Shown: piece by piece, positions 42,250-47,444 of the stretch
Numbering within the stretch: the stretch's first letter is position 1
Layout of the letters: every line of letters begins with the position of its first letter
Assembly: GCF_004362895.1 (NCBI RefSeq)
Contig: NZ_SNXI01000017.1
Span: 1 to 57,378, forward strand
Source of the DNA: Idiomarina aquatica
GTDB lineage: Bacteria > Pseudomonadota > Gammaproteobacteria > Enterobacterales > Alteromonadaceae
Reading direction: 5' to 3'
Length of the DNA: 57,378 bases
Notes under the pieces: model-generated
What the model was told of the DNA's origin: nothing
Databases searched by the model: none
The model's input: the letters and a program-made list of their open reading frames with translations, nothing else
Translations under genes and position numbers: made by a program

Positions 42250-42358
42250 ACGCTAATCCCTTTAATTAAAGTCCTTACAGTTTGTAGGATTATAATATAT
42301 ATTCTGCTAATATAATAACCATCATATGCATATGCTCATATCACATAAGGAAGTCGTT

Positions 42359-43015
42359 ATGAAAAACTTCATTCGTCGGCGTAGTTTAATCCTCGGCAGT
42401 GCGTTTTTGATATCGCTGTCAGCCAGCGCCGCTGATGGCAATATAGACAATGGTCAACAACTGTCAATGAAAGGTGATGGTAGCGGTGCCCCTTGTATGG
42501 CTTGTCATGGCCCTAATGGTGAAGGCAATGCGGCAGGCAATTTCCCCTACATTGCGGGGTTAGACGAAGGCTATTTATTGCGTCAGATGCTGGCCTATCA
42601 AACAGGCGCCCGGACTAACGCCGTTATGAGCATGAATGTCGATAACTTTGACGAGCAACAACTGGCTGATATTGCCGCTTATTACGCGAGCTTACCCGCG
42701 CCGACCGCAACCGCAGAAATCAGCGATAAAAAACAAGCGGAACTGGGCGAGATGTTAGTCAATAACGGCAATTGGGATGAATACATTCCGGCCTGCAGTA
42801 CATGTCATGGGCCCGGTAATCGTGGTGTTGACGAAAATTTCCCTGCCCTTGCCGGACAACATGCGGGTTACATTAAGCAGCAGCTTAAAGCGTGGCAAAA
42901 CGGTACCCGTAAAACCGACGAAGTGCAGTTGATGGAAGCTGTTGCTAAACGCTTAAGTGACGAACAAATTGATGCGGTCGCAGCCTACCTCGCATCGCTA
43001 CCTGCCGCGAAATAA
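42359..43015 (+). CDS. tsdB: Dihaem cytochrome c, TsdB-like
   Basis: A 218-residue periplasmic dihaem cytochrome c4-type protein. The haem sites are CMACH at 46-50 and CSTCH at 146-150, each in a ~90-residue c-type domain. The start at 42359 follows AAGGAAG and opens a signal peptide (SASAAD). It precedes TsdA by 11 bp; in tsdBA organisms TsdB accepts electrons from thiosulfate dehydrogenase. Assigned from domain order plus neighbour. Confidence 0.8.
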   Translation: MKNFIRRRSLILGSAFLISLSASAADGNIDNGQQLSMKGDGSGAPCMACHGPNGEGNAAGNFPYIAGLDEGYLLRQMLAYQTGARTNAVMSMNVDNFDEQQLADIAAYYASLPAPTATAEISDKKQAELGEMLVNNGNWDEYIPACSTCHGPGNRGVDENFPALAGQHAGYIKQQLKAWQNGTRKTDEVQLMEAVAKRLSDEQIDAVAAYLASLPAAK

Positions 43016-43026
43016 GGAGTCAGAAC

Positions 43027-44016
43027 ATGGATAAATCATTAAAAGTTGCCTTATCGTTACTCGGCGCTTCTGTTGCCGGATTAGCTGTTGCGGCGGTTCA
43101 AGATCCCGGTGAAGTAAAATTACCTGAATATAAAGAAGGCGCTTATGTTCACGATGCCCCGACGCTAACTGACATTAAGACGGATCCTGATTTACACCCG
43201 GAGCTGCGCCAAGTGATCCTCAAAGGTCGTGACATGTTCATGAACACCCAGAAATATCGCGGCGAATATGTCTTTAACGACATGAGTTGTAAGTCGTGTC
43301 ATATGGGTGAAGGGCGTATGCCATGGGCTGCACCGGTGTGGCCTGCAGCGACGACCCTACCAGACTTTCGTGGTAAGAATAAGCACGTTAACTCACTAGA
43401 AGAGCGCATTGCCGGTTGTTTTGCTTATTCTATGAACGGTAAGCCGCCGGAATATGGCAGCGATGACATGTTAGCGTTAGTGGCTTATCACACCTATATG
43501 GCCAAAGGCGCTAAGGTGTACGACAAAAATATTGCTGCACGAGGCTTTAACCACTTAGGTAAGCAGATGCCTGAGGACATTAGTTATGACGCTGGGCAAC
43601 AGGTTTATACGGACAACTGTGCGGTATGCCACGGTGATAATGGCGAAGGAAAACGCGTTGATGGTGAGGTTGTTTTCCCCGCGTTGTGGGGCGATAACTC
43701 CTACAACTGGGGCGCTGGAATTACCCGTATCTTTACCGCGGCATCTTTTATTCAAAACAATATGCCGTTAGGCCAACCCGGTCGCTTATCGGATAAAGAG
43801 GCTTGGGACGTCGCTTATTTTATTAATGCGCACGAACGCCCTCAAGATCCGCGTTACACTGGCGATATAGAAGAGACACGCAAAAAGCATAATAACTTTT
43901 ATCAGTGGTCGTTATACGGACAGGAAATTAACGGCAAAGTGCTGGGTGATCATAACAACACCGGCGAAAAACCGTTTCTTAAACCGGATAACTTAAAACC
44001 ACGGACATTTGACTAA
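43027..44016 (+). CDS. tsdA: Thiosulfate dehydrogenase
   Basis: A 329-residue dihaem enzyme that joins two thiosulfates to tetrathionate in the periplasm. The haem sites are CKSCH at 88-92 and CAVCH at 198-202. The conserved ERIAGCFAYSMNG segment (Cys131) matches the cysteine that ligates the active-site haem 1 in TsdA, and NNMPLGQPG supplies a likely Met ligand for haem 2. Signal peptide at the N-terminus. It follows tsdB by 11 bp. The pair lets the cell draw electrons from thiosulfate as a supplementary energy source. Confidence 0.85.
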   Translation: MDKSLKVALSLLGASVAGLAVAAVQDPGEVKLPEYKEGAYVHDAPTLTDIKTDPDLHPELRQVILKGRDMFMNTQKYRGEYVFNDMSCKSCHMGEGRMPWAAPVWPAATTLPDFRGKNKHVNSLEERIAGCFAYSMNGKPPEYGSDDMLALVAYHTYMAKGAKVYDKNIAARGFNHLGKQMPEDISYDAGQQVYTDNCAVCHGDNGEGKRVDGEVVFPALWGDNSYNWGAGITRIFTAASFIQNNMPLGQPGRLSDKEAWDVAYFINAHERPQDPRYTGDIEETRKKHNNFYQWSLYGQEINGKVLGDHNNTGEKPFLKPDNLKPRTFD

Positions 44017-45684: not shown

Positions 45685-46542
45685 TTAGGGCTCAACGCTC
45701 CCGTCAAGGCTGTGTAAAAACGCTTGCAGTTGAGTGAGCTCTTCTCGGCTTAGGTTAAGTTCGTTAATTAATGGCGATAGTTTGGCGTAAGGTATGCCAC
45801 TATCGTCATTAGGATCCGGCGCATTTTGCCACCAACCATCGTTATACAGGTTTAACAGCGCCTCCAGACTGCGGGCAAAGCCGTTGTGTAAATACGGTGC
45901 CGTCGCGCTTACCCCGCGCAACCCGGGGGTACGAAAAGCGCCGACGTGCTCAGGCTTGGCGGTTACCGCATAACGCCCTTTAAAGTTGCCCTGGTGATGA
46001 AAGCTAGAACCTAAATGATGAAAGTCATTATCGGTGAGTAGCGCGCCATGGTGGCAATTCATACACTGCCCTTTAGTGCGAAATACATGCAAACCTTTAA
46101 TTTCTGGTGCGGTTAAGGCTGTGCGATCGCCCCGCATAAACTGATCAAAGCGCGTGTCGGTTAGGGTGATGGTGCGCATATAGTTTGCTATCGCGGTCGC
46201 TATTCGGCCGGCATTGATTTGCGTGTCGCCAAAAGCCGCCTCAAACTGAGCGCTATAGTTACTGTTATTTTGTATGCGTTCGACCGCCGCAGGTATGTTG
46301 GCCGCCATTTCGATGGGGCTTTGCCAGGTTTGTATCACCTGCGCTTCGAGTGACTCTGCACGACCATCCCAGAATAGCTCTGATAAAAACGCCACGTTAA
46401 TGATGCTGGGGGTGTTGAGATCGTGTTGTTGCTGTTGATGCCCGATGGCCTTGCGCTTGCCATCGGCCCAGCGCTGCTCGGGATCATGGCAGCTGGCACA
46501 GGAAATTTGCTGCGACTTAGACAGCAGCGGCTCAAAAAACAA
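45685..46542 (-). CDS. Dihaem cytochrome c peroxidase domain without own start
   Basis: The dihaem c-type domain of the MauG/cytochrome c peroxidase family: CASCH early (haem 1) and CMNCHHGAL in the middle (haem 2), with the conserved HNGFARSLEALLNLYNDG region. The earliest start codon in this frame is TTG at 46542, inside the conserved ELGKALFFEPLLS stretch, and the frame is clearly protein-like further up (NRAQRELGK) with no ATG, GTG or TTG before a stop. There is no signal peptide, although haem attachment occurs in the periplasm. The missing part (WPA...LAALP, typical of this family's N-terminus) is in the upstream gene in the other frame. It therefore seems to be made by -1 frameshifting from 46578 (fused product ~586 residues), or the sequence has an indel in the A-run. 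Confidence 0.75.
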   Translation of the reverse strand: MFFEPLLSKSQQISCASCHDPEQRWADGKRKAIGHQQQQHDLNTPSIINVAFLSELFWDGRAESLEAQVIQTWQSPIEMAANIPAAVERIQNNSNYSAQFEAAFGDTQINAGRIATAIANYMRTITLTDTRFDQFMRGDRTALTAPEIKGLHVFRTKGQCMNCHHGALLTDNDFHHLGSSFHHQGNFKGRYAVTAKPEHVGAFRTPGLRGVSATAPYLHNGFARSLEALLNLYNDGWWQNAPDPNDDSGIPYAKLSPLINELNLSREELTQLQAFLHSLDGSVEP

Positions 46543-46548
46543 CGCTTT

Positions 46549-46597
46549 ACCGAGCTCACGCTGAGCTCGGTTTACGACTTTTTTGCGTGGGCTTCCT
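46549..46597 (-). promoter_or_regulatory. Putative programmed -1 frameshift signal
   Basis: Minus strand, 5' to 3': a Shine-Dalgarno-like AGGAAG (46592-46597), a 7-base spacer, slippery A AAA AAG (46578-46584) in the correct phase (GCA AAA AAG), two codons later the zero-frame stop TAA (46572-46574), then six bases after the slippery site a 9-bp perfect stem ACCGAGCTC / GAGCTCGGT with a 5-base loop (46549-46571). This is the same set of parts, in the same order, as the known dnaX frameshift signal. The -1 frame enters the peroxidase domain at once. Confidence 0.65.
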
Positions 46598-47444
46598 GTT
46601 GTCGTGGTAAGGCTGCCAACGGCGTCGCCGTTACATTACTGTCAACCATTGCCGCAGGCCACTGCGATTGAGGTCCCCGATAGATTTGTACCAACGGGTC
46701 CTGTTCCGACTCCCAGCGCTGTTGCGGGTACGACGGTAACGGCAAAGGCTGATTGGGGTTTGCGATGCCCTGCTCGATGGCGGTGACGATATCGCTATGC
46801 ACTTGATTGCGAAATTTAGCTACGGCCATCCATTTATCGATAAACGCTTGCGGTGGCTGTTTGGCGCCGGAGTCTTTATAAGCTTTTAAATGCGGAGCAA
46901 CCCAGTCGTAACCGGCTTTTACGCGTTGCGCTTGACGCTGGCTGAAGTCGTTAAGTTGTTGTTGCTGTGCCTGGCTTAACTGGCTTTTATCAACGCTCTG
47001 GTAGGACTGCTCGATAAAATACTGGGTGAATTCCTCGGTAGAGTGCTTTGACGCATTGGTCCAGTGTTGCCAATCGCCAAAATTATCAATTGCACCTGTT
47101 TCCGCATCGATAATGATTACCGTAGGTGTGCCGTAATACATAGGTTCATCATAAGCTTTTACGATATCGTACCCGCGTTCAAAGTAGCCGACGTCTATCG
47201 GCTGAACTTGGTAGTTTTGCTGTAGTTTTTGACTAAATTCAGATTGATTAAACTGTTGCAGCAAGGCGATGCTGTCACCACACCAATTAGCACCTAACAC
47301 CAGCATCAGGTCTTTACCTTCTGCCGCGGCTTGCTGCTGCCATTGTTTTAGCTGCTGCGGGTCTGGGTTTTGACCGTCAAACTGCCACTCTTGTGCTAGT
47401 GCTGATGTACATACTAATGCGACTACGACCAATAAATACTTCAT
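46572..47444 (-). CDS. Exported thioredoxin-like protein with peroxidase linker
   Basis: A 290-residue exported protein. The signal peptide ends at ALAQ. A thioredoxin-like fold follows (LMLVLGANWCGDSIALLQQFN; a single Cys instead of CxxC, and the cis-Pro segment GTPTVIII). A helical middle part comes next. The C-terminal ~40 residues (WPAAMVDSNVTATPLAALPR) look like the usual N-terminal lead of dihaem peroxidases rather than a thioredoxin end. It stops just before the peroxidase frame, at the slippery A-run. It is probably the zero-frame product of a frameshifted gene; the -1 product would join it to the peroxidase domain. Confidence 0.8.
   Translation of the reverse strand: MKYLLVVVALVCTSALAQEWQFDGQNPDPQQLKQWQQQAAAEGKDLMLVLGANWCGDSIALLQQFNQSEFSQKLQQNYQVQPIDVGYFERGYDIVKAYDEPMYYGTPTVIIIDAETGAIDNFGDWQHWTNASKHSTEEFTQYFIEQSYQSVDKSQLSQAQQQQLNDFSQRQAQRVKAGYDWVAPHLKAYKDSGAKQPPQAFIDKWMAVAKFRNQVHSDIVTAIEQGIANPNQPLPLPSYPQQRWESEQDPLVQIYRGPQSQWPAAMVDSNVTATPLAALPRQQEAHAKKS

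Follow-up and report, generated by a model that had tools for sequence, protein, structure and literature searches.

A putative dnaX-type −1 frameshift between a thioredoxin-like protein and a dihaem peroxidase in Idiomarina aquatica

Known −1 frameshift systems and the locus compared with them

To our knowledge, −1 programmed frameshifts in bacteria are few outside mobile elements and dnaX. Among the mobile elements, IS911 and IS3 yield fusion proteins by −1 frameshifting. In the dnaX gene of Escherichia coli K-12 (RF00382), the slippery heptamer A AAA AAG is accompanied by an SD-like motif upstream and a stem-loop about 6 nt downstream. The same heptamer, with the same two companions, occurs at 46549-46597 on the minus strand of the stretch of I. 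aquatica DNA analyzed here, which comprises 57,378 nucleotides and is referred to as the window. Judged by its sequence, we consider it likely that this locus uses a −1 programmed ribosomal frameshift of the dnaX type. The sequence shows the parts of the signal, their phase and rarity, the domain content and the length across the break; we infer that slippage occurs and how often, and that both products are functional.

Several details set the two sites apart. The SD-like motif stood 7 nt before the heptamer in the window and stands 10 nt before it in E. coli dnaX. The stem was a simple one of 10 bp, whereas that of E. coli dnaX is longer and imperfect, and folding of the 40 nt past the heptamer gave the similar values of −18.1 and −19.7, respectively. 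The genes are unrelated, and the slip would give the long product here, in contrast to E. coli dnaX, where it is described as giving the short one. In a comparison with Rfam, RF00382 was the best of 4227 families, with a score of 20.2 bits over 181 bases (E 0.014) that lay below the cut-off of 35. When the whole genome was searched with RF00382, an unrelated place without AAAAAAG scored 22.6 bits, and the window site was absent among the four matches listed (150 of 402 candidates were scored). As an unrelated genomic site scored higher, the Rfam DnaX match was not counted as support.

Other described systems share single traits with the locus. IS911 and IS3 resemble it in that two ORFs yield one fusion protein through slippage at an A-rich heptamer, but the window locus is a chromosomal redox gene without a transposase. 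The stimulators of IS911 and IS3 are used in PMC4066793, which also lists IS clusters. A reversed dnaX arrangement, proposed for a Chlorobium candidate in one part of PMC5009743, shares with the window the stop directly after the site and the long slip product, but differs in gene and protein domains. The dihaem cytochrome c peroxidase / MauG family has the CCP_MauG domain and two CxxCH motifs in common with the window peroxidase, which differs from the family in having no leader of its own, a lead in another frame and an attached thioredoxin-like protein.

The origin of the signal as a copy from the organism's own dnaX was considered and rejected, that gene being one 634-codon open frame without A AAA AAG. 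It was seen to contain ten consecutive A and then a C (L103 about 1763-1772; G000:C16 near 45762). By analogy with Thermus dnaX, for which portions of PMC3711429 and PMC5009743 report gamma via transcriptional slippage, the I. aquatica gene is a candidate for gamma production by this route. Transcriptional instead of ribosomal slippage on the A-run of the window would likewise bring the two frames together in a fraction of the mRNAs, and the run in the organism's own dnaX looks suited to it. However, the run in the window has six A and is short for this process: according to the part of PMC1088944 that deals with it, selection against slippage is evident at about nine A in a large proportion of genomes, although some bacteria may also slip on shorter runs. 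Nor would this process need the stem-loop or the SD-like motif, and we regard transcriptional slippage as the source of the fused product as extremely unlikely.

No paper on this gene pair with frameshifting was found among open-licence papers, and the words "peroxidase" and "thioredoxin" are absent from the available main text of PMC3711429 (the GeneTack survey) and PMC5009743. The locus appears to present a known trick, the dnaX-type slip, with a new user, a redox-protein fusion seen in one genome so far. If the fusion is young and its signal arose near the joint, as considered below, it would be a rare bacterial frameshift that is neither mobile nor in dnaX or prfB, and that is caught near its origin. 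Automatic annotation would probably label the peroxidase as a pseudogene or a leaderless fragment.

Reading frames and the signal between them

The zero-frame ORF (46572..47444, minus strand, as are all features of the locus) encoded 290 aa, which begin with a probable signal peptide, continue with a thioredoxin-like domain and finish with a peroxidase lead before the stop TAA. The initial annotation had taken this upstream protein for the source of the signal peptide; a probable one, MKYLLVVVALVCTSALA (47394..47444), was recognized by eye from the translation. Pfam placed a Thioredoxin_7 match over its cut-off at residues 35-114 (47103..47342; E 2.9e-7), and the translation showed the motif WCGDS of this domain to have a single Cys. 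A contig scan with the thioredoxin-like protein revealed no relative, the window locus was its single match in the genome, and a plasmid search gave no match. Residues 249-289, DPLVQIYRGPQSQWPAAMVDSNVTATPLAALP...KK (46578..46700), aligned with the peroxidase leads of two close relatives (genomes G116 and G288) and of named kin, so that the earlier statement that the upstream protein ends in a peroxidase lead proved correct. The conserved form of this lead, YRGPQ..WPA...LAALP, was carried by the zero frame.

The dihaem peroxidase core was found in the −1 frame by Pfam and frame bookkeeping (45685..46578; 297 codons and a stop). This frame contained a CCP_MauG domain (PF03150; 46123..46563) with an E value of 1.9e-51 and 175.1 bits against a cut-off of 25.6, together with two haem-binding motifs read from the sequence and its translation, CASCH (46486..46500) and CMNCH (46051..46065). 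It thereby had the CxxCH pair and the above-cut-off PF03150 match of the family; it lacked the family's arrangement in which a leader peptide precedes a lead and a core that share a frame, the lead lying in the zero frame and the core in the −1 frame. The window peroxidase was the only CCP_MauG match of the genome. Its best solved relatives were 3o5c and 1iqc, and its best named sequence relatives were from Nitrincola lacisaponensis and Alteromonas sp. C1M14. As the lead lies in the zero frame, the break runs through the peroxidase itself rather than only between it and its export signal, and the need for a frameshift is therefore stronger than had initially been noticed.

An internal start of the peroxidase was rejected. 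As had been noted before, none of ATG, GTG and TTG occurs ahead of ELGK in the −1 frame; the earliest start is a TTG at 46542, which is located inside the conserved core, and its product would be leaderless, whereas c-type haem attachment occurs outside the cytoplasm. By frame bookkeeping, the −1 slip product would have 289 + 297 = 586 aa. The predicted product lengths of about 290 and 586 residues were hence retained; that the short and the long product would be made in a set ratio is an inference. The distance from LP to LG after a −1 slip was 17 residues, equal to that in the six closest named kin; this spacing varies across the family, L164 and L166 being examples of more distant members in which it is shorter.

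Direct reading and frame bookkeeping bore out the order of elements described for the junction. The SD-like stimulator AGGAAG (46592..46597) was separated by 7 nt (CCCACGC) from the slippery heptamer A AAA AAG (46578..46584), which stood in phase 2 of the 290-codon ORF and was followed by a TCG codon and the zero-frame stop TAA (46572..46574). Counted from the end of AGGA, the distance of the SD-like motif was 9 nt; a range of 9-14 nt from the shift site is given for SD-like stimulators of −1 shifts in a section of PMC5009743. A perfect stem with the loop GCG (46549..46571) began 6 nt past the heptamer, its arms being ACCGAGCTCA (46571-46562) and TGAGCTCGGT (46558-46549). The perfect pairing and the 6-base spacing agreed with the initial annotation, and the length was corrected from 9 to 10 bp. 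The 5' arm was made up of poorly conserved residues ahead of the core and the 3' arm of the conserved ELG. The locus thus showed two further features of a dnaX-type signal, namely A AAA AAG in the zero-frame phase and a stable stem-loop a few nt downstream.

In the mechanism that we propose, ribosomes that do not slip would stop at the TAA. Their product would be exported and consist of the thioredoxin-like protein and a tail of 42 residues, the unused peroxidase lead. Where the stem-loop and the SD-like pairing make a ribosome pause on A AAA AAG, the two tRNA-Lys could slip back by one base, after which translation would go on in the −1 frame. The slip would produce a two-domain protein of 586 residues with a dihaem c-type peroxidase at its C-terminus, for which the thioredoxin-like part provides the signal peptide. 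This is the one dihaem peroxidase that was detected in the genome, and it is predicted to be made by slipping ribosomes alone.

The signal against the genomic background

The background sample consisted of 780,000 bases (39 stretches from 18 other contigs), taken as the first 20-80 kb of each contig and not as a random draw, and amounted with the window to 837,378 bases or 28% of the assembly. Both strands together held 308 AAAAAAG sites. A perfect stem of at least 9 bp beginning 3-10 nt downstream was present at the window site alone, and one of at least 7 bp at four of the sites. An SD-like 4-mer in range upstream was found at 15 of the 308, the window site included. The fold of the approximately 32-33 nt 3' of the heptamer had −17.0 kcal/mol, and for 32 nt the window site ranked first of 308 (next, −14.7); with longer fold windows of 40, 50 and 60 nt it ranked 2nd, 15th and 11th. 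At each of the four lengths, none of the other sites had both an SD-like motif and a fold as stable or more so. In-phase heptamers numbered 23 in open frames of at least 150 codons across the sample.

Folding of a 71-nt region gave −24.4 kcal/mol, compared with a mean of −15.4 for shuffled sequences (z −3.5; as low in 1 of 200 shuffles). The encoded peptide VVNRAQRELGK was also drawn from synonymous codons, with the amino acids fixed and codons chosen by genome usage (398 ORFs). A perfect stem of at least 9 bp arose in 2 of 20,000 draws and equal fold stability in 52 of 20,000. Two rare codons lie in the stem, CGA, which accounts for 9.6% of Arg, and CTC, for 7.0% of Leu. For lysine, two tRNA genes were found, both with UUU, among 48 tRNA genes that form an incomplete set, e.g., with no Ile-typed tRNA; a sole tRNA-Lys is linked to slipping on A AAA AAG in a passage of PMC5009743. 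Signal, phase, geometry and rarity thus speak for the programmed −1 frameshift of the initial annotation; a conserved signal was shown by none of the relatives seen.

The same counts bear on a different explanation, in which a recent one-base length change in the A-run inactivated an in-frame fusion, the peroxidase is a young pseudogene, and the stem-loop and the SD-like motif are coincidental. A-runs are where such length changes happen. However, the stem and the SD-like motif would both have to be accidental at the right distance, and of the 837,378 positions, counted on one strand, 148 are the start of a perfect 9-bp stem with a loop of 3-8, the SD-like motif being present at the 15 of 308 sites mentioned above. 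It also speaks against a pseudogene that the 297 codons are open and both haem motifs intact.

An error of sequencing or assembly could in principle have created the frame break in a true gene that is an ordinary in-frame fusion, given that the genome is a draft of 63 contigs and that A-runs are error-prone on some sequencing platforms. Yet six A make a short run, the completeness of the assembly was 99.99 and its contamination 0.02, and an error would leave the stem-loop unexplained. For a wider check, 573 proteins of G003 (800 kb) were compared with the sample, in which 152 had an orthologue-like match. None of the 152 was split between frames in this assembly, where a split needed a second piece at E 1e-20 and short pieces would be missed. 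As no compared orthologue was split, we judge an assembly error to be very unlikely, and the count argues against a recent mutation as well.

Relatives of the two halves and origin of the fusion

The thioredoxin-like protein was a stand-alone gene in two species of the genus, with identities of 64% (G003, over residues 1-246) and 60% (G011, over residues 1-248). Their proteins stop at ..WE* and ..WES*, respectively, where the window protein continues into the peroxidase lead; the residues past that point, DPLVQIYRGPQSQWPA..., are the start of a mature peroxidase. In the closest relatives of the peroxidase, such as those from Alteromonas sp. C1M14 (G116; 56% identity) and G288 (55%), DTLTEVYRGPQQNWPA or a similar sequence came after a leader-like stretch, and the frame was unbroken through the core. 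None of the 80 named peroxidase loci had a stop in its match. In 77 of them, lead through core lay in one frame; the matches of the other three began at query residue 23, 38 and 51.

No thioredoxin-like match was present near any of the 80 named peroxidase loci within up to 3 kb on each side, neither the fusion nor the signal was seen in 18 other genomes of the genus, and the matches listed from searches of the family and the order included none that spanned both halves. Matches to the 290-residue protein were found in 73 other genomes, and the surroundings were examined for 32 of these. A peroxidase within about 1.5 kb of the thioredoxin-like gene was seen at one of 29 loci (L009-L037), namely L018; G001, G116 and G288, which match the 290-residue protein at its tail only, were inspected in addition. 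In L018 (362-2226), the gene directly downstream of the thioredoxin-like one encodes a dihaem peroxidase, is separate from it and starts with a leader-like stretch of its own. This peroxidase had 33% identity to that of the window. The arrangement in L018 is possibly an unfused counterpart of the pair, and it gives a hint, no more, that thioredoxin-like protein and peroxidase may work together.

Based on the separate thioredoxin-like gene and the uninterrupted peroxidase in relatives, we interpret the window locus as a lineage-specific fusion of a whole thioredoxin-like protein with a leaderless peroxidase, with a frame break about 40 residues past the joint. The relatives had uninterrupted peroxidase genes, but none carried the fusion, and neither conservation of the signal nor an in-frame fused ancestor was seen; a test by relatives is thereby only partly applicable. 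Conservation of the signal across species was not found, there being no second genome with the fusion among the matches listed.

For the column test and the tree, 77 of the 80 named loci were used, the three excluded being those whose matches did not start before query residue 20; the query for the tree and for the 80-locus search had one extra residue at the joint, and column counts were the same with the right length. Of the 54 columns with at least 95% conservation among the 77 relatives, the window peroxidase deviated at 2, a number equalled or exceeded by 9 of the 77. Of the 73 columns with at least 90% conservation, it deviated at 8; one of the 77 relatives had more deviations and the other 76 had fewer. 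The closest seven kin deviated at 4-7 of these columns, and 4 of the 8 window deviations were each shared with at least one of them; two further ones fell on the slippery site and on the stem. In the tree, the peroxidase branch was among the longer ones (root-to-tip rank 74 of 78). These values are in keeping with a functional protein that changes rapidly, and it may have undergone slight recent decay.

A recent mutation of an in-frame fusion would agree with these deviations at the 90% columns, with the uninterrupted frames in all 80 named relatives and with a signal that no second genome was seen to keep. As the fusion was seen in one genome only, we leave some weight to this explanation, while holding it to be improbable in view of the stem, the SD-like motif, the open frame and the orthologues described above.

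Under the programmed frameshift, the locus probably originated when a whole stand-alone thioredoxin-like gene was fused to a peroxidase gene that had lost its leader. We see about an even chance that this is a young fusion in which the programmed −1 frameshift meters out an optional, export-dependent enzyme domain, and in which the dnaX-like signal arose de novo near the joint. The cell would then make a free thioredoxin-like protein and a set proportion that bears the genome's only detected dihaem peroxidase, and the signal would have evolved from the poorly conserved residues between lead and core. Since a whole signal is found in a lineage-specific fusion, and relatives have separate counterparts of both halves, the locus offers a route to asking how a frameshift signal arises.

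Some further observations were made on the surroundings of the two genes. In G001, of the same genus, only a C-terminal remnant of the thioredoxin-like gene was present, beside tRNA-like sequences (L038 2922-3071), and in G003 the intact gene lay just past an apparent tRNA 3' end (L039). Such tRNA sites may be the places at which genomes acquire and lose the thioredoxin-like gene. Related peroxidases with long N-terminal extensions occurred within frames of approximately 1,020 codons in Aeromonas (L193, L194, L198, L218, L223 and L227) and in L242; in the two of these for which Pfam results were obtained, the domains were Lcl_C below the cut-off (L194) and Big_2 (L242). In the window, two predicted c-type cytochrome genes with several CxxCH motifs, counted by eye, are located near the peroxidase on the other strand (42326-44016), and a chemoreceptor-like gene stands between them and the peroxidase.
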